37,729 bases of DNA from Bacteroidetes bacterium GWA2_31_9 (lineage in GTDB: Bacteria > Bacteroidota > Bacteroidia > Bacteroidales > GWF2-33-38), in contig MEND01000155.1 of NCBI GenBank assembly GCA_001768975.1, positions 56,067-93,795 on the forward strand. The letters run 5' to 3'. Below, one piece after another: positions 9,540-34,187 of the stretch. A program made the position numbers and the translations under genes. The notes under the pieces are model-generated. The model searched no databases. It worked only from the letters and a program-made list of their open reading frames with translations, and was not told where the DNA came from. How positions within the stretch are numbered: position 1 is the stretch's first letter; each line of letters starts with the position of its first letter.

Positions 9540-10387
9540 AGTTCTTTTAAACACCTTTGTAAACCGTCTTTCCAGTGTAGAATTTCAATATTAAAAGTAG
9601 ATTTTATCTTATTTTTATTCAAAACACTATAATGTGGTCTTTTGGCAGGAGTTGGATATTCGGAAGTCAAGATTGGAGTAATTTTACAATTAATGTTTTT
9701 TGCATTAACAATTTCTAAAGCAAAATCGTACCAACTACAAACTCCTTCGTTTGAATAATGATAAATTCCGCTTTCAAATTTATTTGATTTAACAATTTGC
9801 AAAATAGTTGATGCTAAATCCTCAGCATAAGTTGGAGTTCCAATTTGGTCAAAAACTACTTTTAATTCAGGTTTTTCTTTAGAATATTTCAGAATTGTTT
9901 TAACAAAATTATTTCCGAATGATGAATAAAGCCATGATGTTCTTATAATTATAGCATCACAACCAGATTTTTCAATTTGCTTTTCACCTTCAAGTTTAGT
10001 GATTCCATATTGCGAAACAGGGCTAACTTGAATATCCTCAGTATAAGGCAAACATGAAGTTCCATCAAAAACATAATCGGTAGAAATATGAATTAATTTT
10101 ATTTTATATTGCAAAGCAATTTCCGACAAGTATTTTACTGCTTCTGAATTAATTAATAATGCTTTATCAGTCTCTGTTTCAGCTTTGTCAACGGCTGTAT
10201 ATGCAGCACAATTTATGATAAAATCGTAATTGTTAGCTTTAAAATGTAATTTTAATGTGTCTGAATTTGTAATGTCGAGCTCATTAACATCGGTAAAATT
10301 AAACTTACAATCAGGATAATTAGCCGATAATTTTCTTAGCTCGTTTCCAAGCTGACCGTTTGAACCTGTTATTAATATTTTTTTCAA
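9536..10387 (-). CDS. rfbD: dTDP-4-dehydrorhamnose reductase
   Basis: Catalyses the last step of dTDP-L-rhamnose synthesis, reducing dTDP-4-dehydro-rhamnose with NAD(P)H. The 283 residues form an extended SDR fold: a Rossmann motif TGSNGQLG (7-14), DVNELDITN (33-41), NCAAYTAVDKAE (59-70), the STDYVFDG segment (102-109), the catalytic YGITK (Tyr127, Lys131), and RTSWLYSSFGNNFV, all typical of RfbD/RmlD. It lies on the same strand as rfbC, rfbA, the UDP-xylose synthase and ugd, but a MNT-HEPN gene pair separates it from rfbC; the HEPN stop is 26 bp upstream of its start. The stop codon overlaps that of the convergent lptD gene. Confidence 0.96.
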   Translation of the reverse strand: MKKILITGSNGQLGNELRKLSANYPDCKFNFTDVNELDITNSDTLKLHFKANNYDFIINCAAYTAVDKAETETDKALLINSEAVKYLSEIALQYKIKLIHISTDYVFDGTSCLPYTEDIQVSPVSQYGITKLEGEKQIEKSGCDAIIIRTSWLYSSFGNNFVKTILKYSKEKPELKVVFDQIGTPTYAEDLASTILQIVKSNKFESGIYHYSNEGVCSWYDFALEIVNAKNINCKITPILTSEYPTPAKRPHYSVLNKNKIKSTFNIEILHWKDGLQRCLKEL

Positions 10388-10413
10388 TGAATCTGAAATT
10401 AATTAGAATTAAG

Positions 10414-10803
10414 TTATTTATTTAGCATTTTTTCAATAATTTCAATAAGTTCTTTAGCTGGCTTAAAATAAGGCATGACTTTATCTTTATCAAAATCAAA
10501 TAAATCGTCGTAATCTCCCTTTTGTCTCCATGTAAAAAGTTGTGAATATATCTTTCCAAATTCAGTAGGAATCTTTTTTGTTAAAATAAAATGTTCTGAA
10601 AAATTTGATTTTGCACCATTATGTGTTGTTGGTTTAAGTCCTGAATCTAAAAGTAGAGCAATAACTGCATAATATACAGAATAATATAATCTATTTATTA
10701 CTGAATTCCATTTGTTTTTTTCAGCTAAAATTTGTGCATCTTCAAATGTATCCTTTGCTCTTAAGAGTCTATACTTTATTAAATCTTCTTTTGCTCCTAT
10801 CAT
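10414..10803 (-). CDS. HEPN-domain protein, putative toxin of a MNT-HEPN pair
   Basis: A 129-residue all-helical protein of the HEPN family. The family signature NRLYYSVYYAV (37-47) is clear, followed by SGLKPTTHNGAKSNFSEHF (54-72) and a C-terminal GDYDD segment (about 96-100). In HEPN/MNT modules the HEPN protein is usually the RNase toxin, with an Rx4-6H active site. Here the conserved His61 is preceded by Lys57 rather than an Arg at the expected distance, so the canonical motif is not obvious and nuclease activity is uncertain. Its ATG overlaps the TGA of the upstream MNT gene by 4 bp, showing translational coupling. The pair interrupts the rfbC-rfbD order of the rhamnose cluster. Confidence 0.85.
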   Translation of the reverse strand: MIGAKEDLIKYRLLRAKDTFEDAQILAEKNKWNSVINRLYYSVYYAVIALLLDSGLKPTTHNGAKSNFSEHFILTKKIPTEFGKIYSQLFTWRQKGDYDDLFDFDKDKVMPYFKPAKELIEIIEKMLNK

Positions 10804-11120
10804 TTAATTCTTACTCCTTCATTTTTAATATTTTCAAATAATGGTGTAATTGAATGATTTTCGTACCAGTCAGATTTTGAATAAATTAATGGAGAAATAA
10901 TTTGACCAGTTTCAAGTTCAATTTCATAAAATTCATCCATGAACTTAGTTTCAAAATCGAATGAAATATTTTTTCTATTTAATAATATCAATAAATCCCA
11001 GTCCGATAATTTCTTAGCGTTACCTCTTGCACGCGAACCGTATAAATATATTTCCGAATCAGGAGCATTTTTATTTATTACTGCAATAATTTTATTCAAT
11101 ATTTGTTGTTTTATGCTCAT
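10800..11120 (-). CDS. MNT-family minimal nucleotidyltransferase, putative antitoxin
   Basis: A 106-residue DNA polymerase beta-like nucleotidyltransferase. The motif GSRARG (28-33) followed by DWDLL (Asp40 and Asp42 as metal-binding carboxylates) is complete, so the active site looks intact. In type VII toxin-antitoxin systems the MNT partner neutralises HEPN by transferring AMP to it; that role is inferred here from the gene pair and the 4-bp overlap. The antisense frame 10939-11133 is a shadow. A perfect -7 box sits only 5-12 bases upstream of the ATG, so the module probably has its own, nearly leaderless transcript in addition to read-through from rfbC, whose stop is 51 bp upstream. Confidence 0.87.
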   Translation of the reverse strand: MSIKQQILNKIIAVINKNAPDSEIYLYGSRARGNAKKLSDWDLLILLNRKNISFDFETKFMDEFYEIELETGQIISPLIYSKSDWYENHSITPLFENIKNEGVRIK

Positions 11121-11124
11121 AGAA

Positions 11125-11132
11125 CAAAAATA
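11125..11132 (-). promoter_or_regulatory. Bacteroidota -7 box (TATTTTTG) for the MNT-HEPN pair
   Basis: On the minus strand TATTTTTG matches TAnnTTTG perfectly and ends 5 bases before the MNT start codon, in the 51-bp gap after rfbC. A start site 5-7 bases downstream would give a leaderless or nearly leaderless mRNA. No convincing TTTG -33 element was seen. Confidence 0.4.
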
Positions 11133-11171
11133 GTAATTTATTAGATTAGTTTATTTTTTATCGAATATTAT

Positions 11172-11720
11172 TCAAAAATTCATCTCAGCCTTATCAAAAC
11201 CACACATATTCCTATCTCGTTCTGAAACAAGCCTTTTGTTGGCAGGAATTTTCCAATCAATGTTTAGTTTTTTATCGTTAAAAGCAATTCCTCTTTCTCT
11301 GTCGGGACGATAATTGAAATCGCATTTATAAAAAACTACTGCTGTTTCGCTTAAAACCGAAAAACCATGAGCAAATCCTTTTGGAATAAGTAATTGAGTG
11401 TAGTTTTCGTCTGACAATTCAACACCAAACCATTGCCCGAAAGTTGGTGAGTTTTTTCTAATATCGACAGCAACATCATAGATTTTTCCTGAAAATACTC
11501 TTACTAATTTTGTTTGAGCTTCGGGTTGTAATTGATAATGCAAACCTCTGATTACTCCATACGATGATTTTGATTGATTATCTTGTACGAATTGGTTAGA
11601 AAAACCTAATTCTTGCAATTTTTCTAAATTATAACTTTCAAAAAAATAACCTCTTTCGTCTTTAAAGACCTTTGGTTGAATAATTTTTAAGTCCTTTATT
11701 GGAGTTTCAATTACTTGCAT
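11172..11720 (-). CDS. rfbC: dTDP-4-dehydrorhamnose 3,5-epimerase
   Basis: Third enzyme of dTDP-L-rhamnose synthesis, epimerising C3 and C5 of the 4-keto sugar. The 182-residue cupin protein shows FKDERGYFFESY (19-30), the catalytic GVIRGLHYQ with His61, VRVFSGKIYDVAVDIR (73-88), IPKGFAHGF (112-120) and the Tyr131 region, all standard for RmlC. It starts 4 bp after the rfbA stop, consistent with an operon. On its other side the MNT-HEPN pair separates it from rfbD. Confidence 0.97.
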   Translation of the reverse strand: MQVIETPIKDLKIIQPKVFKDERGYFFESYNLEKLQELGFSNQFVQDNQSKSSYGVIRGLHYQLQPEAQTKLVRVFSGKIYDVAVDIRKNSPTFGQWFGVELSDENYTQLLIPKGFAHGFSVLSETAVVFYKCDFNYRPDRERGIAFNDKKLNIDWKIPANKRLVSERDRNMCGFDKAEMNF

Positions 11721-11724
11721 TTAT

Positions 11725-12612
11725 TTACAAATTAACAGTTAAAACTTCTTCATTGGCAACATGAATAAGATACTCGCCATATTGATTTTTCTTGAGAGGC
11801 TCTGCTAAAGCAAGTAATTGCTCTTTATTAATAAATCCTTTTTTGTATGCAATTTCCTCAATACAAGCAATTTTTAACCCTTGACGATGTTCAATAGTTG
11901 CAATATAATTTGATGCTTCGAGCATACTTTCGTGTGTTCCTGTATCAAGCCAAGCCATTCCACGTCCTAATAAATTTACTTTTAGACGATTTTCATTCAA
12001 ATATAGTCGGTTCAAATCGGTTATTTCAAGTTCGCCACGAGCAGATGGTTTTAAATTTTTTGCTTTTTCAACCACGTCATTGCTATAAAAATATAAACCT
12101 GTAACTGCATAATTCGATTTTGGATTTTTTGGTTTTTCTTCAAGACTTAAAACTTTTCCGGTTTTATCGAACTCAGCAACACCATAGCGTTCAGGGTCTT
12201 TTACATAATATCCAAAAACTTCGGCTCCATCTTTAAGTTTGTAAGAATTCATTAACATTCCACTAAATCCGTAGCCATAGAAAATATTATCGCCCAAAAC
12301 CATACAAACATTATCGTTTCCGATAAATTTTTCGCCAATTATAAATGCTTGTGCAAGTCCATCGGGAGAGGGCTGAATTTCGTAAACTATATTAAGTCCG
12401 AGTTGCGAACCATCGCTAAATAAATCTTTATAAAGCTGAATGTCTTTAGGTGTTGAGATAATTAAAATATCTCTTATTCCAGCCAACATTAGCACTGATA
12501 GCGGATAATAAATCATCGGCTTATCATAAATTGGGATTATTTGTTTTGAAATACTGCGAGTTATCGGATACAATCTTGTACCTGAACCTCCTGCGAGAAT
12601 TATTCCTTTCAT
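11725..12612 (-). CDS. rfbA: Glucose-1-phosphate thymidylyltransferase
   Basis: Makes dTDP-glucose from dTTP and glucose-1-phosphate, the entry step to dTDP-rhamnose. The 295 residues match the RmlA family: GGSGTRLYP (8-16) binds the nucleotide, [17 protein letters not shown] (30-46), LGDNIFYG for metal binding, [19 protein letters not shown], and WLDTGTH near the allosteric region. Its ATG overlaps the TGA of the upstream UDP-xylose synthase by 4 bp (ATGA), and rfbC follows 4 bp after its stop, so these three genes are tightly coupled. rfbB, the next enzyme in the pathway, is not in the window. Confidence 0.97.
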
Positions 12613-15795: not shown

Positions 15796-17538
15796 ATGGA
15801 AAACAATGATATATTAAATACAGTAAAACAAAAAGCTCAAATTTGGATTAATGGAAGTTTCGATTCTGAAACAAAAAAAAATGTAAAACACTTACTCGAA
15901 AATGATGAAAACGAACTCATTGAATCATTTTATCAGGATTTGGAATTTGGAACCGGTGGTTTACGTGGAATTATGGGAGTTGGGACAAATAGAATGAATA
16001 TTTATACTGTAGGAATGGCAACTCAAGGATTTTCAAACTACTTTAAACAACAGTTTCCAAATGAAAAACAAATTAAGGTTGCTGTTGCTCACGATAGCCG
16101 AAACAATAGTCGTTTATTTGCCGAAACAACAGCAAATATTTTTTCTGCAAACGGATTTAAGGTTTTCTTATTTGATTCGTTACGCCCAACACCGGAACTT
16201 TCGTTTGCAATTCGACATTTTGGTTGTCAGGGTGGAGTTGTTGTTACAGCTTCGCATAATCCTAAGGAATATAATGGATATAAAGCATATTGGAACGATG
16301 GAGGTCAACTTGTTGAACCACACGATAAAAATGTAATTGCCGAAGTTCAAAAAATCACTTCTGTAGATGATGTTAAATTTATAGGCAATGCTAAAAACAT
16401 TACAATTATTGGTAACGAAGTTGACGAAATTTATCTCGAAAAAATTAAGGAATTATCGTTATCTCCCGAATGTATTAAACGCAATAGTGATATTAATATA
16501 GTTTATACGCCAATTCATGGTTCTGGAACTAAGCTTGTTCCGATGATTCTTAAAAAATATGGATTTACAAATATCTCTATTGTAAAAGAACAGGAAACAC
16601 CAGATGGAAATTTTCCAACTGTAATTTCGCCAAACCCCGAAGTGCCTGATGCACTGAGATTGGCAATTGAAAAAGCAAAACAAGTTGGAGCCGATTTAGT
16701 TATGGCTACCGACCCCGATGCTGACAGAGTTGGAATTGCAGTGAGAAACAACCGAAACGAATTTATTTTATTAAACGGAAATCAAACAGGCTCTATTTTA
16801 GTGTATTATCTGCTTACAAAATGGAAACAAAATGGCAAATTAACTGGCAAAGAATATGTTTGCAAAACCATTGTTACAACCGAACTTATAAAAGCAATGT
16901 CGGACAAATTCGAGGTTGAATGTTTTGATGTACTAACTGGTTTTAAATACATTGCCGAATTAATTAAAGAAAATGAAGGCAAAAAACTATTCATCGGTGG
17001 CGGAGAAGAAAGCTACGGATATTTAGCCGGAGAATTTGTTCGCGATAAAGATGCCGTAATTGCCTGTGCGTTAATAGCCGAAGCTGCTGCATGGGCAAAA
17101 GATAATGGCAAAACATTTTACGAACTTCTGCTCGATATTTACGCAGAATATGGTTTATATAAAGAAGACCTTATAAACGTTGTTCGCAAAGGAAAATCGG
17201 GAGCCGAAGAAATTCAACAAATGATGAGCGATTATCGCAAAAATCCTCCAACTTCAATTAACAATTCAAAAGTTATAGAAATTCGTGATTATCAACTTAA
17301 AATAATCAAAAACCTTGTTACAGGAAAAGAATCGCAAATTAATATGCCAAAATCGAATGTATTGCAATTTTTCCTCGAAGATGGTTCAAAAATTACAGTT
17401 CGCCCATCGGGTACAGAACCTAAAATTAAGTTTTATGTTGGAGTTAAGGCTGATTTGAAAAATAGAGATGATTTTGAAAAGGTGGATAAGGAATTAGCAG
17501 AGAAGGTTTTTGGGGTGAAGAGGGGTTTGAAATTGTAA
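15796..17538 (+). CDS. Phosphoglucomutase/phosphomannomutase (alpha-D-phosphohexomutase)
   Basis: Interconverts hexose-1- and hexose-6-phosphates. The 580-residue protein belongs to the long PGM2-like group: substrate loop GTGGLRGIMG (about 52-61), catalytic phosphoserine Ser153 in TASHNPKEYNG, metal-binding DPDADRVG (about 307-314), sugar-specificity GGEESYGYL, and the phosphate-binding RPSGTEPKIKFY near the C-terminus. It is divergent from the sugar-nucleotide cluster, so its product glucose-1-phosphate could feed both RfbA and, through UDP-glucose, Ugd. It is followed 5 bp later by the SprA-like gene, suggesting co-transcription with an unrelated secreted protein. Confidence 0.96.
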   Translation: MENNDILNTVKQKAQIWINGSFDSETKKNVKHLLENDENELIESFYQDLEFGTGGLRGIMGVGTNRMNIYTVGMATQGFSNYFKQQFPNEKQIKVAVAHDSRNNSRLFAETTANIFSANGFKVFLFDSLRPTPELSFAIRHFGCQGGVVVTASHNPKEYNGYKAYWNDGGQLVEPHDKNVIAEVQKITSVDDVKFIGNAKNITIIGNEVDEIYLEKIKELSLSPECIKRNSDINIVYTPIHGSGTKLVPMILKKYGFTNISIVKEQETPDGNFPTVISPNPEVPDALRLAIEKAKQVGADLVMATDPDADRVGIAVRNNRNEFILLNGNQTGSILVYYLLTKWKQNGKLTGKEYVCKTIVTTELIKAMSDKFEVECFDVLTGFKYIAELIKENEGKKLFIGGGEESYGYLAGEFVRDKDAVIACALIAEAAAWAKDNGKTFYELLLDIYAEYGLYKEDLINVVRKGKSGAEEIQQMMSDYRKNPPTSINNSKVIEIRDYQLKIIKNLVTGKESQINMPKSNVLQFFLEDGSKITVRPSGTEPKIKFYVGVKADLKNRDDFEKVDKELAEKVFGVKRGLKL

Positions 17539-17543
17539 TAAGA

Positions 17544-19250
17544 ATGATACCAAAAAAAAAGCTTTTTCATACGCTTAAAATAATGTATAGTAGAAAGATC
17601 AAGTGTTGTGTTTTATCTGTTTTTATAGCGTACTTTTTTATAAATTCATCATTTTCACAAAACAATTATTACGAATATACTAAGGTAACTACTTTAGATA
17701 TTCACCATTATAGTGGATGGTATTTATCAAGTCTTCCAGAAAAACAACCTGTTTTATTTCCCGAATCTATGCTTACCGACAGTATTGGTTTTGGATTTAA
17801 CAGAGCCAAAATTTGCTGGTATTCTATTGACCCACTTTTTTTGAGAAACAATTCTGCTACTCCTACACACATTAAAGAAAACCCTGATTTTCAATCAAAC
17901 CATTTTGTTAGAGAAATTTTTGAAAAAGAAATTTTTCCAGATAGTGAACATCCAAATAATATACCTACAAATATTTCTGTACTAAATTTAGCTTATTATC
18001 CACAAGAAAAAGGACCTTATAATTATGATATAAATCAAACTACTTTTTCTTCCGGAATTGATTCAAATGGCCTATTACTAAACCCAAAATCACGCTGGGC
18101 TGGAATTATGAGAGAAATCGAAACTCCTGATTTTGAAAGAGCATCAATAAAAACTATTGAATTTTGGTTAATGGACCCTTTTGTATATGACACAATACAT
18201 TCTGGAGGGGAAATGTATATTAATCTTGGAGATATCTCTGAAGATATTCTAAAAGATTCTTGGCTATCATTCGAAAATTCACCTAAAGATACTACTTCTA
18301 TATGGGGTAATGTATCGACAATTACTCCTGGTTTATACATTGATAATAATAATCCATATAGATTTTCAGATTGTGGCTTAGATGGTTTTCCTGATTTTTC
18401 TGAAAGGCAATTTTTTAGTTATCCTAATTATATAAACAGCAAGTATTCATATTTAATTTCTATTTTAAATAGCTATGGAAGTCAATCTCTTGCATATCAA
18501 AATGCAATTCAAGACCCTTCTAATGATAACTATCACCATTTCAGAGGTTCTGATTACGACCAACTTCATTTAGGAATTATTGAACGTTATAAAAAATTTA
18601 ATTTACTAGAAGGAAATTCTACTTCTGAGAGAATAGCTTCAATTTTACCAGATTTTGAAGATATTAATAAAAATTTTGAACTTGAAGTTGCAGAAAATTA
18701 TTTCCAATATCAAATTCATATAAAACCTGATTCTTTTATTATTGGTCATAATTATATTGACGATACAATCTCCTATAACGCCACTTTTAAAAATGGAACA
18801 AAAAATTGGTTAACCTGGTTTCATTTTACAATACCAATTGAGTCGTTTCAAAAACGTTTTGGACAAATTAGCAGTTTTAAAAAAATTAAATTTATACGTA
18901 TTTTTTTGAAAAATTTTGAGGATTCTATTATTATGAGATTAGCTACTTTAGATTTAGTTCGAAAAGCTGATTATAAATATATTATCCCTAATGATATTGA
19001 GGCAAATAAATTATATATTTATCCAAATCCTTCAAATGGTAATTTTACAATATATTTATCAGATATTGAATGCCATATAATTGACCTTTATAATTTAGAT
19101 GGACAGAGAATTGATATTGATAATATTAAATCAACTGATTCAATGGGCCCCAAATTTATTAATATAAAAAACTTGAATAAAGGAATATATATTATTAAGG
19201 TTATTAGTGTTGATAATAAAGTATTTACTAGCAAAATTTTAATCTTATAA
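17544..19250 (+). CDS. Secreted SprA_N-like module with T9SS type-A sorting domain
   Basis: A 568-residue exported protein. A signal peptide precedes ...FINSSFSQ (about residue 39; Met14 at 17583 is an alternative start). Residues about 50-480 follow the N-terminal module of the giant type IX translocon protein SprA/Sov: FGFNRAKICWYSIDP, SVLNLAYYPQEKGPYNYD, SRWAGIMREIETPDFE, IEFWLMDPF, YINLGDISEDILKD, DGFPDFSE, then ILPDFEDIN, and KIKFIRIFL...LATLDLVRKADY at the end. SprA is usually over 2000 residues with a 36-strand barrel; none of that is present. Instead residues about 488-568 form a type-A T9SS C-terminal sorting domain (YIYPNPSNGNFTIYL ... GIYIIKVISVDNKVFTSKIL). This protein is therefore likely exported by T9SS, not part of its pore. 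Its role is unknown. It overlaps the next gene by 1 bp. Confidence 0.82.
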   Translation: MIPKKKLFHTLKIMYSRKIKCCVLSVFIAYFFINSSFSQNNYYEYTKVTTLDIHHYSGWYLSSLPEKQPVLFPESMLTDSIGFGFNRAKICWYSIDPLFLRNNSATPTHIKENPDFQSNHFVREIFEKEIFPDSEHPNNIPTNISVLNLAYYPQEKGPYNYDINQTTFSSGIDSNGLLLNPKSRWAGIMREIETPDFERASIKTIEFWLMDPFVYDTIHSGGEMYINLGDISEDILKDSWLSFENSPKDTTSIWGNVSTITPGLYIDNNNPYRFSDCGLDGFPDFSERQFFSYPNYINSKYSYLISILNSYGSQSLAYQNAIQDPSNDNYHHFRGSDYDQLHLGIIERYKKFNLLEGNSTSERIASILPDFEDINKNFELEVAENYFQYQIHIKPDSFIIGHNYIDDTISYNATFKNGTKNWLTWFHFTIPIESFQKRFGQISSFKKIKFIRIFLKNFEDSIIMRLATLDLVRKADYKYIIPNDIEANKLYIYPNPSNGNFTIYLSDIECHIIDLYNLDGQRIDIDNIKSTDSMGPKFINIKNLNKGIYIIKVISVDNKVFTSKILIL

Positions 19251-20971
19251 TGAAGAAAAACCCCTTCTCATTCTCATCTGTCATAATTATTTTTTCAACC
19301 TTAGTCATTATTAGGCTAATATACATTGATTTTTCAAATCGATCATTTCAGTGGGATTCCCTTGGTTATTATATGTATCTACCATCGCAATACATTTATC
19401 ACGATGTTAAAGAATTGAAATGGTATCCTGAATTAAAAGAAAAATATAATTTTCCGGGCGATTTTTATCAGGCTAGTAAACATAAAGAAACCGGGAATTA
19501 TGTGTTTTTTTACACAATGGGAGTATCTGTTCTCGAAACTCCATTTTTCTTTATCGGTCATTTTGTTGCAGGATTTTTAGGATATTCTCAAGATGGTTTT
19601 TCTCCTCCATATCATTTAACAATTAATTTTGGTTTACTACTTTATCTTTTAGTAGGGTTTTTTCTACTCCGAAAAGTTCTGTTACGATGGTTCAGCGACA
19701 AAATTACTGCGATAGTTCTTTTGCTTGTGTGCCTTGCTACAAATTTTCCTCAGTATTCGGCAATTGAAGCCGGATTTACTCATGGCTATCTGTTTTTCAT
19801 TTATTGTTTAATGTTGTATTTTACAGTTATTTGGCACGATAATCCTACTTTAAAAAAGTCATTCGTGATTGGACTGATAATTGGGTTTGCAATACTAATA
19901 AGGGTTACAGACGCATTAATAATGTTTATTCCTATTTTTTGGAATTGCCATACAAAAGAGTTAAGAAAACAAAAAATTGCATTTTTTAAATCACAGCCAA
20001 AGCACATTTACATTGCAATTTTAGCTACATTTTTAATGTTACTACCTCAGCTTATATATTGGAATCACGTTACAGGTCATTTAATTCATCAAATGGGTTC
20101 AAAATGGCATTTTCTTAATCCGTTTTTCAGAGTTTTAGTGGGATGGGAAAAAGGTTGGTTTATATATACTCCAGTCGTATTATTTATGGTTTTAGGACTG
20201 TTTTTTATGAAAACCAAAGAGTTTCGTAATTCTGTATTAGTATTTATAATTTTAAATATATGGGTTGTAATATCATGGCATGTATGGCGTTATGGAGCGA
20301 GCTATTCGACTCGTGCTTTGGCACAATGTTTACCAGTATTGGCTTTTCCGCTTGGAGTTCTTATTACAAAAATCTATAAGAAAAAAGTCTTAATAATATT
20401 GTTTTCGATAACAGTTTCATATTTAACTATTGTGAATTTATTTCAGATATGGCAATACAACAAAGGAATTATTCATTATGACGATATGAACCGTCGGTAT
20501 TATCAAGCAGTATATCTTAATCCATCGCCAACACCTGTTGAAATGTCGTTGCTTGATACTGATGAATTTCTAAATAATGAAAATGATTTTAAACAAGAAA
20601 TAATTTTCAAATCAGATTCTGTGTTTATATTAAATGCTGAATATGATACGATTAATATTCTGTTTTCTGAAAAAATTTCTGAACACAATTTGTTAAATGC
20701 AAAATGGCTAAAACTATCGGTTAATTACAAAACAGATTATACGGTTTGGGGAGCATATTTTGTAGCAGAGCTAAAAAACAGCTCAGGTTTAATCAAACAA
20801 CGTTCAATAAGATTAGATAATGTTCTTTTTAAATCTAATTTAAAAAATACAGCCGAGTTTTATTTTAATACTGAAAATGCAAATTCAGATGATGAACTTA
20901 TCATATATGGTAAAACTATAATGAATAGTAAAATTGAATTAACTGATTTTAAAATTATATCATATTTTTGA
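19250..20971 (+). CDS. GT-C-like polytopic membrane protein (putative glycosyltransferase)
   Basis: A 573-residue inner-membrane protein with about ten transmembrane segments in the first 410 residues and a soluble, beta-rich C-terminal region (about 420-573). The acidic loop after the first segment (DFSNRSFQWDSLGYYMYLP, about 27-45), the aromatic luminal loops and the segment IEAGFTHGYLFFIYCLMLY resemble the GT-C fold of lipid-linked sugar transferases such as ArnT/PMT, where an Asp in the first loop is catalytic. I could not place it in a named family. Its ATG overlaps the stop of the SprA-like gene (TAATG), so the two are translationally coupled, which may link glycosylation and the secreted protein. 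It ends at a strong terminator. Confidence 0.7.
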   Translation: MKKNPFSFSSVIIIFSTLVIIRLIYIDFSNRSFQWDSLGYYMYLPSQYIYHDVKELKWYPELKEKYNFPGDFYQASKHKETGNYVFFYTMGVSVLETPFFFIGHFVAGFLGYSQDGFSPPYHLTINFGLLLYLLVGFFLLRKVLLRWFSDKITAIVLLLVCLATNFPQYSAIEAGFTHGYLFFIYCLMLYFTVIWHDNPTLKKSFVIGLIIGFAILIRVTDALIMFIPIFWNCHTKELRKQKIAFFKSQPKHIYIAILATFLMLLPQLIYWNHVTGHLIHQMGSKWHFLNPFFRVLVGWEKGWFIYTPVVLFMVLGLFFMKTKEFRNSVLVFIILNIWVVISWHVWRYGASYSTRALAQCLPVLAFPLGVLITKIYKKKVLIILFSITVSYLTIVNLFQIWQYNKGIIHYDDMNRRYYQAVYLNPSPTPVEMSLLDTDEFLNNENDFKQEIIFKSDSVFILNAEYDTINILFSEKISEHNLLNAKWLKLSVNYKTDYTVWGAYFVAELKNSSGLIKQRSIRLDNVLFKSNLKNTAEFYFNTENANSDDELIIYGKTIMNSKIELTDFKIISYF

Positions 20972-20973
20972 AT

Positions 20974-21005
20974 AAAAAAAGCTGTCATTTAAGTTGACAG
21001 CTTTT
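20974..21005. terminator. Bidirectional terminator between convergent genes
   Basis: A perfect 11-bp stem AAAAGCTGTCA (20977-20987) with TGACAGCTTTT (20995-21005) closes a 7-base loop, with A and T flanks on both sides. It lies 3 bases after the GT-C-like gene and 18 bases after the stop of the convergent PUR-family gene. Confidence 0.85.
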
Positions 21006-21022: not shown

Positions 21023-21376
21023 TTATTTCTCCAAATCATCAAAATCAACCTTTGAATATTCCTTCTCTTCTGAAAATTCATCGTCGTTGCGAGTAAAAAC
21101 AGTTCCTTCAGGTGAATTATCTTTAACATATTGAACAACCTCATTTATCCCTTCAACAAATTTTTCAAAATCCTCTTTGTAAAGGAATATTTTATGCTTT
21201 TCAAAATGGTATTTTCCATCACGGTCAAACATTTTTTTGCTCTCAGTTACCGTTAGGTACATTTCATCTCTCCTTGTTGACTTAACATCAAAAAAATATG
21301 TTCTTTTTCCAGCTCGAACTGCCTTTGAAAAAATCTCATCTCTGACGTTCTCTCTTTTTTGTTCGTATCCTTCCAT
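21023..21376 (-). CDS. PUR-family DNA/RNA-binding protein (DUF3276)
   Basis: A 117-residue Bacteroidota protein of the PUR-alpha-like family. The single PUR repeat spans about 14-88 (FSKAVRAGKRTYFFDVKST, YLTVTESKKMF, HKIFLYKEDFEKFVEGINEV), matching the beta-beta-beta-beta-alpha Whirly-like fold that binds single-stranded nucleic acid. The tail (about 89-117) is acidic and disordered. It is monocistronic, divergent from nusB, with a perfect -7 promoter box about 41 bases upstream of its start. Its cellular role is not established. Confidence 0.93.
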   Translation of the reverse strand: MEGYEQKRENVRDEIFSKAVRAGKRTYFFDVKSTRRDEMYLTVTESKKMFDRDGKYHFEKHKIFLYKEDFEKFVEGINEVVQYVKDNSPEGTVFTRNDDEFSEEKEYSKVDFDDLEK

Positions 21377-28238: not shown

Positions 28239-31200
28239 ATGAGACATTTTACAGAACATATAATTTTAATAATTTTTGTTTCTGTAATAACTTTGTTTTT
28301 TTCTTTCAAAAGCTCAGCTCAAGATTGTACAATTACATCTAAGGCTAACGATATGATTCCGGACAAACTTTGTGCTCCGGTTTCTTTGTCTTGGGAAGTT
28401 ACATATAGAGGCGTAAATGATAATGGAACCTCCGTAGAAATTCAGTTTAACTGGGATGATGGAAATCCAACCGAAACAGTTGCTGCTATTAGTACTAATC
28501 CTGCACAGAAAGAATGGAAAGTTCTAGTTAATCACGTTTATCCTAAAGGAGGTATTTCTTGCAACTATAATCCAACTGCCACCCTTGTTGTTAATGGAGT
28601 ACTTTGTACAAGTTCAATTCAAGAACAAAACGTAACTGTTTGGGATACCGACGACGAAAATGGTGGAGCTGTAACTATTTCACCACAAGTATTTCCTATA
28701 TGTGTTGGCAATTCAGGAACTGTAACATTTCAAGATGTTTCAATTTTCAATTGTGTCCCACCTGTAGAAAACGACAATCAAAACTTAGCAACACGTTGGA
28801 CTCAGTGGGTTTATGGAACTAGTTTTACAATTTCAAATGTATTAGTTAATGGTTCTGCTCAAGCATATCCATATTATGATGCAGTTTATGAACATACTGG
28901 TCCTGTAACCGGACCTCAACCTCCAAATGATTTTAGCTTTCCATGCTTTTCGCCTGCCACGGCTACTGTTGCCCAATTTTTTGAAGTTACTCTCAGATAT
29001 TGGAATTACTGTAATCCTTATGACGACCCAAATATTCCCGGACTACCAGCAGATTTGGTTAATGGAGATAATCCTCCTGTTATAGGAACAGCAATGATTT
29101 TAATTGTTCCTCGACCTGATGCAACAATAACGCCAGCTGGACCTTTTTGTGAAAACGCATCTGCTGTATTTTTAACTGCTGCAACTGCAGGAGGAACATG
29201 GTCAGGGACAGGAATTACCAACTCTTCAAATGGACGGTTTAATCCTGCAACAGCTGGACCTGGAACTCACACAATAACATACATAGTTACCGATGGAAAC
29301 GGATGTGCAGGAACTGATACAGAAACAATTACTGTTTATGCAATTCCCAACCCAAACATTTTGCCTTCATCACCTGCAGAGGTTTGCCCGGGAGACTCAC
29401 TTCAACTTGATGGAAATCCAATTCAAGGAAGTGGAAATATCATTACACATTTATGGACTGGAAATACTGCTCCGTTAACTGCAACAAATATTCAAAATCC
29501 GTATTTTTATACAAACACACAAGGTTCTTATGTTTTAACATACAAAGTTACAGACGATAACAGCTGTTTTAAGGCTGAAAATATAACTGTAAATGTTAAC
29601 CCCGTTTCTGCAAACATAATTCCAAATCCAGCTGAAGCTTGTAAAGGTCAAAATTTTATAATTAACGGAAATCCTTCGGGTGGAACTGGAAATTATGTTA
29701 CACACGACTGGAGTGGCGATGCCATTTTACTTAGCGATTCTACAATTCAAACTCCAATATTTAATTCTGCAGTTACTGGAATTTTTAACTTTTCGTACTT
29801 TGTTTCAGATAATAATGGCTGCTATGGAACTGATAATATTTCAGTTACAGTATTTGATGTCCCAGTTTCTAACGCTGGAATAAACGACAGTATTTGTGGA
29901 AAAAACTATTCATTTTCTGCAATACCAAGCATTGGAACAGGAACTTGGTCGAAAAGCTCAGGTGCTGGAACTGCCAATTTTACAAATGTTAACAGCCCTA
30001 CATCATCTGTAAGTGTTAGCTCATTTGGAACTTATCAGTTTAAATGGAAAGAAGTTTTTGGTCCAAATTGTTCCGATAGTGCATTTGTAACAATAACATT
30101 TATTGAAACTCCAATATCTAATGCAGGAACTGACAATAGCACTTGCGGATTTAACATTCAACTAAATTCTGTTCCAAGCGTTGGAGTTGGAGAATGGAGT
30201 CTTTTATCAGGAACAGGCAATTTAAATTTTACAAGTATAAACTCGAATAATAGCTTTATTACTGCCGATACTTATGGGAGTTATGAGCTTATTTGGTCAG
30301 AGGACAATTCGTTTGGATGCGTTGATAACGATACAGTTACTATTAATTTTGATGTTGTTCCAATTACACTTTTTACTCCATTTGATTCGTCGGGATGTAC
30401 TCCTTTTACTATTAACTTTATTGATAATTCTGTTGGTTCGTCAATATATTTATGGAATTTCGGAGGTACAAACACTTCAAGTAATCAAAATCCTACATAT
30501 ACTTTCATTAACAATGGAACTTCAAACTTAAGTTTTGATGTTAAATTAGTTACAAGTTCAATTTATGGATGTAAAGACTCAATTAGCACAACTGTAACAG
30601 TTTTTCCAAAACCAAATTCAGTATTTACACACGATGCAACACCATCATGCAGTCCACTAAGTGTCAATTTTACAAATACATCAACAGAATCTAATTTTCA
30701 TATCTGGAATTATGCTGATGGAAGCGGAAACGACACAATTTTTCAAAATTCTCATATATTTACAAACGACACTTCATTTATTCAGTATCTTAATGTACAG
30801 CTAATTGCTGTATCTGCAAATAACTGCAAAGACACATCATCGCAAATAATTACAGTTTATCCAAATCCAAATTACAACTTTGTTATAAATCCAGATTCGG
30901 CTTGTCATCCTGCAAATGTAAACCTGCTTGCTACACCTGGAGCTTTTGTTTACACTTGGAATTTTGGCGACGGATCAACATCAAATGGCAGTTATAATAT
31001 TAATCACAACTATGTAAACAATTCAAATACAGACACTAGCTTTACTATTAAACTAAATACAACCTCATTATTGGGATGCAAAGATTCATCAACACAACAA
31101 GTTACAATCCATCCAAAACCTTCAGCAATTTTCACAATTGATACAAATTCAGGTTGTACTCCATTGAATATTCTTTTTACTAATAATTCGCAAAATGCCT

Positions 31201-34187
31201 CATTTTATTATTGGAATTTTGGCGATGGAAATATTGACACTTTAAGCAATTTGCCTTTCACTCACACATACACTAACAATATTAGTACTCCAATAATCAA
31301 CAACATTACTTTAGTTACAGAATCCTCAAATGGTTGTAAAGATACTGCAAGTAATACTGTTACAATTTATCCCGAAATAATTGCAAATTTTACATCTGAT
31401 ACAGTTGGCTGTGAGCCATTAACTTTGCAATTTATAAATTTATCAATAGGTGCAAATAGCTACACTTGGGATTTTGCAAATGGAAATACTTCAACTCAAA
31501 CTAACCCATTAAATACATTTGAAACAGCAGATTATAACGATAGTATTTTCAGAATTGAATTAATCTCCAAATCGCAGTATAATTGTAGAGATACTTCATT
31601 TTTAAATATTCATGTTCTGCCAAAACCAATGTCTGAATTTTATCCCGATACAATTGCTGGATGTTCGCCTTTCGATGCTGAAATAATTAACCTTTCGGAA
31701 GGAGCCGATTCTTTTCAATGGAATTTTGGTGATGGCGAATTTTCAAACAGCACTGATTCAATCATTAACCATCTTTATTATAACAACTTAAGTTCGCCAA
31801 GCCAATTTCAAATAAGTTTGACAGCTTTTAATATTTTTGGTTGCTTCGACGAAAATTTCAAGCCTGTGATTGTATATCCAAATATAAATGCAGATTTTAC
31901 AACAGATACAACAGGCTGTCATCCATTGAATTTACAATTGTTAAATCAGTCTTATGGTGCAAATCAGTATTTTTGGAATTTTGGAGATGGAGCTAGTTCA
32001 TCGTCGATAAATCCAATTCATATATTTAATAATTATGGATTTACAGACACTACTTTCAATGTTCGTTTGATTGTAAAATCATCGTTTAATTGTTTCGATT
32101 CAATATTTAAAAATATTAATGTTTATCCTAAGCCTATTGCGAATTTTATTCCCGATTCAATAACTGGATGTTCGCCATTTACTTCACAAATAACAAACTC
32201 ATCGCAAGGAGCTGATATTAATAATTGGAATTTTGGAGATGGAAGTTTAAGCTCTTCAAACGACACTTTAATTTCACATTTATATACAAACAACCTTAGC
32301 TCTCCAAGCGAGTTTCAAATAAGCCTTAGTGTCGAAAATACATTTGGCTGTATAGACCAAATTTATAAACCTGTAATTGTGTATCCAAATGTAAATGCTG
32401 ACTTTATTTCAGATACTGCTGGTTGCCATCCTTTAAATATTTTGTTTTTAAACCAATCGTCAGGTGCAAGTGTTTATAATTGGGACTTTGGCGATAACGA
32501 TAATTCGTTCACCTTAAATCCTTCGCATATATATCAAAATACAACTCAATCAGACACTACGTTTACCGTTAATTTAATTGTAGAATCGATTTTTCATTGC
32601 AAAGACAGCACAAATACTAATATTACTGTTTATCCGAGACCTGAATCATTTTTTGTCACAAATTCATCGGGTGGCTGTACTCCTGTTGATATTCAAATTG
32701 AAAATCAAAGTGTTGGAGCAAATATTTTTGAATGGTCGTTTGGCGATGGAAATGTTTCAAATTCATCTCAACAATTTATAAATCATACTTATACAAATAA
32801 CCAAAATTCTCCAACAACAAATGTTTTGAATCTATCTGTTACAAACTCTCACAATTGCTCAGATAGTTACAATACGAATATTGTTATTAACCCGTTTATT
32901 AAAGCATTATTTACATCAGATACAGCAGGATGTAGTCCTTTGATTGCTAGTTTTACAAATTCATCTTATGGAGCTGATAGTTATTTGTGGAAATTTGGAG
33001 ATGGAACAGCTTCAACACTTCAAAATCCAACTCATACATTTATAAATAACTCTGCTGTTGATTCAATTTATCACATTACTTTAACAGCACAATCGCAATA
33101 TGGATGCTCTGATAGTTTAAAAGCAACTGCAATTATACATCCATCGCCAATTGCAAGCTTTACTGCAAACCCTGCTAGTCAAATTTTTCCGTCCTCAACT
33201 GTTGACATTCAAAATAATAACGATAACTCAAACTGGAATTATTTGTGGAATTTTGGAGATGGAAGTTCATCATCAGTTTCGCAACCAAGTTCACATATTT
33301 ATCAAAGTTTCGGGCAATATACTATAAACTTAATTGTTAATTATCAATATTGTATTGATTCATTAAGTAAATTAATTGAAATAATTGCCACTCCACCAAT
33401 TGCCGATTTTGATTCGTCTGCAAGTGGCTGTCCTCCATTAACAGTAGTGTTTAATAATAAATCAACAAATGCCGACACATATTTTTGGGAATTTGGCGAC
33501 AACAATACTTCTTCAGAATTTGAACCAGAGCATATATATTCAAATCCAGGGACATATCATGTAAAGTTAACTGTTTATGGACCTGGTGGCGAAGACGACT
33601 CATCTGGTGTTATAATTAATGTTTTTCAAAATCCAACTGCTTTATTTACAATTAGTCCAAACTTAGTTTATTTGCCCGAACAACCAATAAATTGTTACAA
33701 TTTATCAACTTATGCCGATTCGTACTTATGGGATTTCGGCGACAATCAAACTTCAATCGAATCTGACCCAAAACATATTTATTCAGAGGTTGGGACTTAT
33801 ACAATTTCATTGACGGCTATTACAGAAAATGATTGCAAAGATACTTATATAGCTCCTGATGTTGTTACTGCAGATGTTAGTGGGAAAATAGTTTATCCAA
33901 ATGCATTTACTCCAAATCCTAATGGTGCTAATGGAGGACAATATGACAAATTAGATTACTCAAATGATATATTTTTTCCAATTCAAGAGGGTGTTGAAGA
34001 ATTTCACATGGAAGTTTATACACGTTGGGGCGAATTGATTTTTGTAAGTGAAGATATTAATATTGGTTGGGATGGATATTATAATGGAGAGTTATGTAAA
34101 CAAGATGTTTATGTTTGGAAAGTACGTGGTAAATATATTAATGGTGAGAATTTTAATAAAATTGGAGATGTAACTCTGTTAAGATGA
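28239..34187 (+). CDS. Giant PKD-repeat surface protein with gliding-motility type-B C-terminal domain
   Basis: A 1982-residue exported protein, probably a filamentous adhesin. A signal peptide ends near residue 28 (FFSFKSSAQ). Residues 30-300 hold a unique region with a PKD-like start (FNWDDGNP). About five Ig/PKD-like modules rich in Gly-Thr follow to about residue 705 (e.g. TAGGTWSGTGITNSSNGRF, WSKSSGAGTANFTN). Then come about 14 PKD domains with the W-x-FGDG core, most with a GCxPL start and a GCxD near the end, whose two cysteines could pair. The last 95 residues are the gliding-motility-associated CHU_C type-B sorting domain (YPNAFTPNPNG, MEVYTRWGELIF, GWDGYYNGELCKQDVYVWK). SprB-like proteins of this type need a PorP/SprF partner, which is encoded downstream. 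Confidence 0.93.
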   Translation: MRHFTEHIILIIFVSVITLFFSFKSSAQDCTITSKANDMIPDKLCAPVSLSWEVTYRGVNDNGTSVEIQFNWDDGNPTETVAAISTNPAQKEWKVLVNHVYPKGGISCNYNPTATLVVNGVLCTSSIQEQNVTVWDTDDENGGAVTISPQVFPICVGNSGTVTFQDVSIFNCVPPVENDNQNLATRWTQWVYGTSFTISNVLVNGSAQAYPYYDAVYEHTGPVTGPQPPNDFSFPCFSPATATVAQFFEVTLRYWNYCNPYDDPNIPGLPADLVNGDNPPVIGTAMILIVPRPDATITPAGPFCENASAVFLTAATAGGTWSGTGITNSSNGRFNPATAGPGTHTITYIVTDGNGCAGTDTETITVYAIPNPNILPSSPAEVCPGDSLQLDGNPIQGSGNIITHLWTGNTAPLTATNIQNPYFYTNTQGSYVLTYKVTDDNSCFKAENITVNVNPVSANIIPNPAEACKGQNFIINGNPSGGTGNYVTHDWSGDAILLSDSTIQTPIFNSAVTGIFNFSYFVSDNNGCYGTDNISVTVFDVPVSNAGINDSICGKNYSFSAIPSIGTGTWSKSSGAGTANFTNVNSPTSSVSVSSFGTYQFKWKEVFGPNCSDSAFVTITFIETPISNAGTDNSTCGFNIQLNSVPSVGVGEWSLLSGTGNLNFTSINSNNSFITADTYGSYELIWSEDNSFGCVDNDTVTINFDVVPITLFTPFDSSGCTPFTINFIDNSVGSSIYLWNFGGTNTSSNQNPTYTFINNGTSNLSFDVKLVTSSIYGCKDSISTTVTVFPKPNSVFTHDATPSCSPLSVNFTNTSTESNFHIWNYADGSGNDTIFQNSHIFTNDTSFIQYLNVQLIAVSANNCKDTSSQIITVYPNPNYNFVINPDSACHPANVNLLATPGAFVYTWNFGDGSTSNGSYNINHNYVNNSNTDTSFTIKLNTTSLLGCKDSSTQQVTIHPKPSAIFTIDTNSGCTPLNILFTNNSQNASFYYWNFGDGNIDTLSNLPFTHTYTNNISTPIINNITLVTESSNGCKDTASNTVTIYPEIIANFTSDTVGCEPLTLQFINLSIGANSYTWDFANGNTSTQTNPLNTFETADYNDSIFRIELISKSQYNCRDTSFLNIHVLPKPMSEFYPDTIAGCSPFDAEIINLSEGADSFQWNFGDGEFSNSTDSIINHLYYNNLSSPSQFQISLTAFNIFGCFDENFKPVIVYPNINADFTTDTTGCHPLNLQLLNQSYGANQYFWNFGDGASSSSINPIHIFNNYGFTDTTFNVRLIVKSSFNCFDSIFKNINVYPKPIANFIPDSITGCSPFTSQITNSSQGADINNWNFGDGSLSSSNDTLISHLYTNNLSSPSEFQISLSVENTFGCIDQIYKPVIVYPNVNADFISDTAGCHPLNILFLNQSSGASVYNWDFGDNDNSFTLNPSHIYQNTTQSDTTFTVNLIVESIFHCKDSTNTNITVYPRPESFFVTNSSGGCTPVDIQIENQSVGANIFEWSFGDGNVSNSSQQFINHTYTNNQNSPTTNVLNLSVTNSHNCSDSYNTNIVINPFIKALFTSDTAGCSPLIASFTNSSYGADSYLWKFGDGTASTLQNPTHTFINNSAVDSIYHITLTAQSQYGCSDSLKATAIIHPSPIASFTANPASQIFPSSTVDIQNNNDNSNWNYLWNFGDGSSSSVSQPSSHIYQSFGQYTINLIVNYQYCIDSLSKLIEIIATPPIADFDSSASGCPPLTVVFNNKSTNADTYFWEFGDNNTSSEFEPEHIYSNPGTYHVKLTVYGPGGEDDSSGVIINVFQNPTALFTISPNLVYLPEQPINCYNLSTYADSYLWDFGDNQTSIESDPKHIYSEVGTYTISLTAITENDCKDTYIAPDVVTADVSGKIVYPNAFTPNPNGANGGQYDKLDYSNDIFFPIQEGVEEFHMEVYTRWGELIFVSEDINIGWDGYYNGELCKQDVYVWKVRGKYINGENFNKIGDVTLLR
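30361..33870 (+). repeat. Array of about 14 PKD-domain repeats, partly in an alternating A-B pattern
   Basis: Within the giant gene the core W-x-FGDG recurs about every 80-90 codons. The central units alternate between an A type (core followed by INHxYxNNxxSP) and a B type (ADFTSDTxGCxPL ... NPxHxF), giving a two-domain super-repeat. Two adjacent copies, beginning with CCCGAT at 31644 and 32151, are 507 bp (169 codons) apart and still highly similar, pointing to a fairly recent tandem duplication. Confidence 0.85.

Follow-up and report, generated by a model that had tools for sequence, protein, structure and literature searches.

The window analyzed here, a stretch of 37,729 nucleotides from Bacteroidetes bacterium GWA2_31_9, encodes a predicted secreted protein that we interpret, with a probability of about 0.6, as T9SS cargo derived by duplication and excision from the cap domain of SprA, the T9SS translocon. 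If true, a structural domain of a secretion machine has become that machine's own cargo, and the genome holds a natural, soluble, genetically separate SprA cap with which binding by the cap (to the C-terminal sorting domain [CTD], PorV, glycans or phages) could be addressed without disabling the translocon. The features on which the analysis rests are as follows.

15796-17538, forward strand: pgm, phospho-sugar mutase of the phosphoglucomutase/phosphomannomutase superfamily (Pfam PGM_PMM I-IV)
17544-19250, forward strand: free-standing SprA piece carrying a T9SS type A signal (568 aa counted from the first ATG)
17565-20970, no strand: stretch absent at the locus of sister genome G001 (blastn, window versus L196: matches stop at 17564 and resume at 20971)
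17583-17660, forward strand: probable Sec signal peptide (by eye from the sequence)
17670-18983, forward strand: SprA cap-type segment, aa 43-480, with a beta-sandwich core of CBM11-like fold (TIGR04189 and VIA-align)
19017-19244, forward strand: T9SS type A C-terminal sorting domain, aa 492-567 (PF18962, TIGR04183)
19250-20971, forward strand: GT-C-fold integral membrane protein, putative polyprenyl-phosphate-sugar-dependent glycosyltransferase (573 aa; AF2 model and fold matches)
19355-19357, forward strand: Asp36 codon; the residue lies in the first extracytoplasmic loop and is the same in 26/26 aligned proteins
20591-20968, forward strand: C-terminal beta-sandwich, CBM16/CBM22-like, aa 448-573 (VIA-align Z about 10)
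20980-21002, no strand: inverted repeat of 8 bp downstream of the GT-C gene (by eye)
21023-21376, reverse strand: right-flanking DUF3276 gene, found at the corresponding position in G001

Domain architecture of the stand-alone SprA piece

The original prediction of a SprA-like secreted protein that is T9SS cargo was borne out by the sequence on both counts. The likeness to SprA is far above chance level: the protein matched positions 771-1197 of the 2319-position TIGR04189 profile (E = 2.5e-121) and F. johnsoniae SprA (6h3i) at residues 866-1267 (E = 7.7e-54), and its cap-type segment aligned with SprA structure 8gl8 at about residues 862-1265 (VIA-align Z = 39.9, rmsd 2.5, 379 aligned). The type A CTD exceeded both curated cutoffs (PF18962: 45.3 bits against a Pfam cutoff of 27; TIGR04183: 41.5 bits against an NCBIfam cutoff of 23). 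The signal-peptide region is typical by eye from M14, and the model shows a single helix at 4-35. SprA/Sov translocons are whole-length proteins forming a 36-strand barrel with other domains. Compared with these (TIGR04189; PDB 6h3i and 8gl8), the window protein shares the sequence and fold of one segment, about 862-1265, but lacks the barrel, the other SprA domains and hence the whole-length architecture, and adds a probable signal peptide of its own along with a type A CTD; judged by sequence, it is a single excised piece of SprA. The matched segment is very probably an insert of the extracellular cap, which PMC9127263 describes as a pair of folded beta-sheet inserts located between strands 7-8 and 11-12. 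With type A T9SS cargo (PF18962/TIGR04183) it has in common a CTD above the cutoffs and, by eye, a probable signal peptide, whereas its passenger, in place of an enzyme or adhesin, is part of the translocon. The core of the cap-type segment also resembles CBM11 (6r31: VIA-align Z = 10.8, rmsd 3.1, 154 aligned, 16% identity), a likeness known from the beta-sandwich fold and not from ligand residues, and differs from it by large extra loops. The same fold likeness applies equally to SprA's own cap.

Related copies and sequence constraint

Full-length SprA is a separate gene in the window genome (2591-aa frame on contig C283), and besides it there are two stand-alone cap copies, the second of which (C166) reaches a contig end, so that its known part is without the C-terminus. 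Another stand-alone copy stands in G002, from the family's other sampled genus, with a CTD that scored just over the NCBIfam cutoff (24.3 versus 23) and under that of Pfam (23.9 versus 27). These three copies formed one clade within the family's SprA tree (support 100/98), in which the branch of the window copy is long (0.52). Differences between the window copy and its own genome's SprA at the three codon positions were 0.335/0.249/0.426 (pN = 0.276, pS = 0.577). Of 118 positions with a conservation of 90% or more across 59 other SprAs, the window copy kept 97 and the G002 copy 105. Retention in the window copy was 50/52 at aa 43-240, 8/17 at aa 241-300 and 26/35 at aa 371-480, and seven positions (241, 248, 379, 382, 427, 476 and 477) were lost in both complete copies. 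These comparisons indicate that the stand-alone family copies evolve under constraint; some relaxation in the window copy also appears real, because 21/118 conserved positions are lost and its branch is long.

A fourth version occurs in G459 (family f184); it is lipoprotein-like, apparently frameshifted and spread over two frames, and its domain boundaries are nearly identical to those of the family copies. An AU test that placed all four stand-alone copies in one clade gave P = 0.096, so a single origin for the four stays unrejected.

Locus layout and the neighboring membrane protein

The TAATG overlap noted earlier was confirmed: the SprA-like stop codon (TAA, 19248-19250) gives its last A to the ATG of the GT-C gene at 19250, both genes lying on the forward strand. 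Such an overlap is ordinary for the window, where 6 of the 23 same-strand neighbor pairs in the gene list overlap, one other sharing the same single base. The 5-bp gap noted between pgm and the SprA-like gene depends on where the latter starts; it holds for the first ATG (17544) and becomes 44 bp for the second (17583). Codons after the first ATG overlie A-tract/AGCTTTTT sequence like the pgm 3' inverted repeat of G001, and from the second ATG (MYSRKIK...) the signal peptide looks more conventional; 17583 is the likely true start. The inverted repeat at 20980-21002 is by eye a probable terminator, on which the terminator scan made no call, and a similar repeat stands directly after pgm in G001. 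Promoter and terminator scans returned nothing above chance (0 terminator calls) and therefore have no bearing on co-transcription of pgm, the SprA-like gene and the GT-C gene, which is plausible.

The membrane protein proved to have the GT-C fold that had been proposed for it: an AF2 model (pLDDT 84.6) matched ALG12 (Z = 26.3), AglB (Z = 21.6) and ArnT (Z = 21.0). Members of the GT-C superfamily are marked by an acidic residue conserved in their first extracytoplasmic loop, and the Asp expected there was found as Asp36, invariant in all 26 aligned sequences. The fold extends over about 340 residues in common with the lipid-phosphate-sugar GT-Cs ALG12, ArnT, Pmt4 and AftB (Z = 17.8-26.3), which share the invariant first-loop Asp, but the window protein is only 8-12% identical to these and bears the C-terminal CBM-like beta-sandwich. 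No Pfam or NCBIfam family scored above cutoff for it. The model and its matches thus point to a GT-C-fold enzyme, putatively a glycosyltransferase with a lipid-linked donor. At 20 loci homologous to the GT-C locus, a GT2 gene lay within two genes in 10, while the window gave no GT2 match to the same query. A custom CTD profile built from 7 rows, of which at least one is not a CTD, placed cargo within two genes of the GT-C gene at 3 of the 20 loci, too few for a link to be claimed.

Conservation of the locus in relatives

The gene order pgm, cargo, GT-C enzyme, which had been suggested to form a functional unit, is not conserved in the relatives examined. The pgm gene was present in 41/41 genomes searched. 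In G001, a congener whose PGM is 91% identical, the locus keeps both flanks but has no SprA-like/GT-C pair, and the difference at 17565-20970 is either a two-gene insertion in the window or a loss in G001. There was no GT-C match in G001 or G002, and the other stand-alone copies (that of G002 and the second of the window genome) stand in other gene contexts. A survey of 29 GT-C loci (one each from 29 other genomes, flanks up to 1.5 kb) gave no SprA-like match. Of 30 pgm loci surveyed, 29 came from other genomes; none of the 27 of these with readable downstream DNA had a SprA-like gene after pgm, where the genes differ between families. The pair was thus not found elsewhere in any genome examined, and the G001 locus together with the GT-C and pgm surveys speaks against a conserved pgm-cargo-GT-C operon and leaves the proposed unit unsupported. 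Of the two outcomes named in advance as refuting the original prediction, absence of the pair from relatives is thus the one observed; the other, a membrane protein lacking the GT-C fold, was not.

Proposed origin and alternative explanations

Conversion of the SprA cap into cargo would have begun with the one duplication within this Bacteroidales family that, as the tree shows, yielded the three family copies. In sequence, the copy carries a probable signal peptide, and a type A sorting domain takes the place of the barrel in the window and G002 copies. Known T9SS biology suggests that the product would be exported by Sec and then pass through full-length SprA with PorV, to be released or attached to the surface; the window genome has genes of the PorV family and of the PorU (sortase) family, the PorU-like genes being intact on C91 and in broken frames on C7. 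The folded cap may finally act as a separate surface domain, for which the CBM11-like core weakly suggests glycan binding. The downstream GT-C gene shares the locus, and perhaps the pgm transcript.

A secreted cap might instead mimic the exposed face of SprA and so absorb phages or antagonists, or compete for PorV or substrate, a role that we consider unlikely. It would fit the retention of 50/52 conserved positions in aa 43-240, and PMC10994853 and PMC9127263 describe the cap as the exposed part of SprA that contacts substrate; in PMC9233685, F. columnare sprA mutants resist phage. Against it, aa 241-300 and aa 371-480 are regions where conserved positions are missing from the window copy, and no phage record encodes the cap segment. 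Moreover, T9SS export is blocked when SprA is lost, so the resistance of sprA mutants need not make SprA the receptor. A broader version is likewise doubtful, namely that the cap has on more than one occasion been put to use as a free protein of the cell surface (as cargo in this family and independently as a lipoprotein in G459 of f184) and acts as a phage or antagonist decoy or cargo-release competitor by imitating the translocon's exposed face.

That the gene is a non-functional by-product, an SprA fragment fused by chance to a CTD and now drifting, would account for the narrow distribution, the long branch of the window copy and the splitting of the G459 version over two frames; the open frames, the domain-exact boundaries, the CTDs kept in two diverged copies and the excess of differences at third positions make this quite improbable. 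Very improbable is a glycan unit, in which pgm supplies sugar phosphate, the GT-C enzyme takes the sugar off a lipid carrier for transfer, and the cargo either serves as target or is anchored with the product. Close spacing, the TAATG overlap, the GT-C fold and Asp36 are consistent with it, as is the frequency of D(S/T)X (X = A, I, L, V, M, T, F or Y), the Bacteroides O-glycosylation motif: the two complete stand-alone proteins have 12.3 and 15.8 per 1000 aa (rates that take in signal peptide and CTD), against a mean of 4.4 and a maximum of 9.2 in 59 SprA segments, and the C166 copy, its C-terminus off the contig, has 7.9. The window cap segment alone has 6 such motifs against 1.9 expected on shuffling (P = 0.007), in a test picked after the sequence had been seen. 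However, the pair is missing at the G001 locus, the GT-C gene from both G001 and G002, and the SprA-like gene from 29 other GT-C loci, while the other copies occupy other contexts and the genes after pgm vary between families.

Searches for further copies

The G459 version is a true second copy, unlike the other candidates checked. Among short SprA frames that were dropped, three loci (L078, L091 and L109) carry whole-length SprA genes interrupted by frame breaks, masking or the end of a contig, and in three more (L112, L126 and L143) the frames are open to the contig or locus end. The second match in G329, at profile positions 590-1601, lies on a fragment of a contig; the matches in G423 are pieces of one SprA. 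The 18 genomes of the class besides G000 with at least two matches hold one SprA each, whole, contig-split (G121, G231) or frame-broken (G135), and minor matches at profile positions of about 602-656 sit in other long frames and do not represent copies of the cap. Among open-licence papers, surveyed by title and opening of the abstract and including PMC11705866, none dealt with a free-standing SprA cap. A Pfam BIV_Env match to the C166 copy (17.1 bits versus a cutoff of 20.8) was dismissed as chance, and the one plasmid record that matched the cap segment is annotated as SprA of Parabacteroides.

Predicted secreted protein and gene layout

Three adjacent genes of the window (contig C155, 56067-93795, of a Bacteroidales genome) were analyzed:
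15796-17538, + strand, pgm
17544-19250, + strand, SprA-like ORF of 568 codons
19250-20971, + strand, membrane-protein ORF of 573 codons

The SprA-like identity originally predicted for the middle ORF was confirmed by the NCBIfam SprA model (E = 2.5e-121) and by the sequence of the Flavobacterium johnsoniae SprA structure (E = 7.7e-54), with matches limited to profile positions 771-1197 of 2319 and to structure residues 866-1267, respectively. Its proposed role as a T9SS cargo was likewise supported by a type A sorting domain (CTD) after the SprA segment, which scored over both cut-offs. Together, the segment match and the tail point to a layout of putative signal peptide, inferred SprA cap and T9SS signal. 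An AF2 model of the protein (mean pLDDT 76.3; SprA part mostly >85, loops at ~240-280 and ~360-380 low, CTD ~50-65) aligned with SprA at Z = 36.7-39.9 and rmsd 2.5, from SprA residues 860-862 to 1265; the alignment end reached residue 1365 where CTD residues of the model were drawn in. A review (PMC9127263) attributes the 50 Å cap closing SprA on the outside to two folded inserts, which lie between strands 7-8 and 11-12, and the size, position and globular beta-sandwich model of the window segment suggest that it is one of these two inserts. The main interest of the locus lies in this excised, T9SS-tagged SprA cap, for which no earlier report was found in the literature searched.

The noted overlap of the SprA-like and membrane-protein ORFs (TAATG, one shared base) was confirmed, and is unremarkable because overlaps are common in the window (6 of 23 same-strand adjacent pairs in its gene list, one of them besides this pair by an identical single base). 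The 5-bp gap between pgm and the SprA-like ORF holds from the first ATG and is lost if translation starts at the second (17583), which we consider the likelier start and from which the putative signal peptide is more typical. Elsewhere in the window, the PKD-repeat protein encoded at 28239-34187 (1982 aa) ends in a weak type B T9SS tail that scored under both curated cut-offs. Directly upstream of the window (L198 9385-11914, on G000:C155), three tandem DUF6089 (PorG-like) outer-membrane proteins lie between NAD-kinase-like and uppS-like genes (named by eye); the third alone has a near-C-terminal cysteine (FPCPAYW).

Distribution and origin of stand-alone copies

The source genome (GWA2_31_9, G000) holds a full-length SprA on contig C283 (2591-aa frame) and a second stand-alone copy on C166, which runs off the contig. 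Near the latter (L065 2310-19999) are a >5400-aa repeat protein and a PorP/SprF-family protein ending in VSCPKF. Within the 80-genome relative set, stand-alone copies were confined to G000 and G002, a genome from the other sampled genus of the family; none was found in the congeneric genome G001 (79% complete). The G002 copy, on contig C32, has its own CTD (24.3 bits versus an NCBIfam cut-off of 23; 23.9 versus 27 for Pfam, and thus below it). A 215-aa protein with the tail CISCPTFH, without a match in a Pfam search, lies 51 bp upstream (L064 10637-11284). In F. johnsoniae, SprF and PorG bind the track via C-terminal cysteine pairs (PMC12635249).

Per-genome counts in the class and order sets covered every matching genome (E limits 1e-15 and 1e-40). 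At least two SprA matches were found in G000, G002, G329 and G459 among 295 genomes of the order; the second match in G459, from family f184, was a genuine stand-alone copy, and that in G329 was a contig fragment. In the class set (247 genomes), the 18 genomes other than G000 with at least two matches each carried a single SprA. A scan of 84,980 species genomes returned G002 as the sole stand-alone copy among the best 80 of 571 relatives, so more divergent copies beyond these may have gone unnoticed.

The three copies of the family (window, C166 and G002) grouped as a single clade (100/98) in a 66-row tree, nested among the SprAs of that family (clade support 100/99). The window segment shared 57% identity with its own SprA, 62% with C166 and 54% with the G002 copy. 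Differences from its own SprA at codon positions 1, 2 and 3 were 0.335, 0.249 and 0.426 (pN 0.276, pS 0.577), compared with pN 0.089 and pS 0.549 between the SprAs of G000 and G001; the window copy is under constraint, weaker than that on SprA. At 118 positions ≥90% conserved across 59 SprAs outside the family, the window copy kept 97 (50/52 at aa 43-240, 8/17 at 241-300 and 26/35 at 371-480), the G002 copy 105, the C166 copy 66 of 72 covered, and family SprAs 116-117. Seven positions were lost in both the window and G002 copies, versus 2.3 expected from 21 and 13 losses (P = 0.002 under independent loss), most simply explained by inheritance.

The G459 copy (L232 8045-9411, contig C8) has boundaries near-identical to those of the family copies (profile 772-1066 and 1080-1189) and a lipoprotein-type signal (by eye), is split over two frames, and has no CTD; a repeat protein lies downstream. 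It grouped with its own SprA in a 29-row tree (88/74, not firm) and formed a very long branch of unsure placement in a 68-row tree, and an AU test did not reject one clade of G459 and family copies (P = 0.096). Two independent excisions of the segment, one in the family and one in G459, are likely.

Conservation of the locus and the membrane protein

The suggestion that pgm, cargo and GT-C-like enzyme form a coupled glycan unit gained no support from conservation. In G001, UDP-glucose dehydrogenase, a small ORF, pgm, DUF3276 and a NusB-like gene (by eye) follow the window order, with an inverted repeat directly 3' of pgm and no SprA-like/GT-C pair; blastn matches end at window position 17564 and restart at 20971. 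The pair was either gained in G000 or lost in G001. pgm was present in 41/41 genomes with varied neighbors. In G002 (L197, G002:C32:102000-116500), pgm lies at 10363-12105 on the minus strand; downstream is a cassette carrying genes for a T9SS-tail protein and AbiH (PF14253), followed by a 178-bp copy of the pgm 3' end (78.7% identical). The 3' end of pgm may therefore serve as a gene-uptake site in at least two lineages of the family.

The membrane protein had no Pfam or NCBIfam family at or above its cut-off. Its predicted GT-C fold was recovered in an AF2 model (pLDDT 84.6) aligning with ALG12 (Z = 26.3), AglB (21.6), ArnT (21.0) and Pmt4 (19.8), Foldseek concurring (ALG12, E = 1.7e-5), and the expected first-loop Asp is Asp36, invariant in 26/26 aligned sequences. 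Residues 448-573 aligned as a CBM16/CBM22-like sandwich (Z ~10). Counting the source genome, relatives occurred in 32 of the 80 genomes. A GT2-like gene lay at most two genes away at 10 of 20 loci read more widely (from 20 of the 31 other genomes), and all seven run against Pfam, from seven loci, were PF00535, which fits a putative polyprenyl-phosphate sugar donor; the same GT2 query had no match in the window.

Possible function

The two complete copies have a higher density of D(S/T)X, the Bacteroides O-glycosylation motif, than SprA segments do, a hint from a post hoc comparison. The free cap could bind glycans, since the model has a CBM11-like core (Z = 10.8), or could imitate the exposed face of SprA. 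F. columnare sprA stop and frameshift mutants resist phage (PMC9233685), which could be due to lost export. The cargo would be synthesized with a signal peptide, exported via full-length SprA together with PorV, and finally attached to or released from the surface. In the solved translocon, the cargo CTD contacts PorV loops and SprA (PMC10994853); the SprA cap is mentioned in a figure legend of the same paper. PorV and PorU families were found in the source genome. An intact PorU-like sortase gene is on C91, and a second, split across several frames, lies beside a PorV-family gene (G000:C7:23876-26967).
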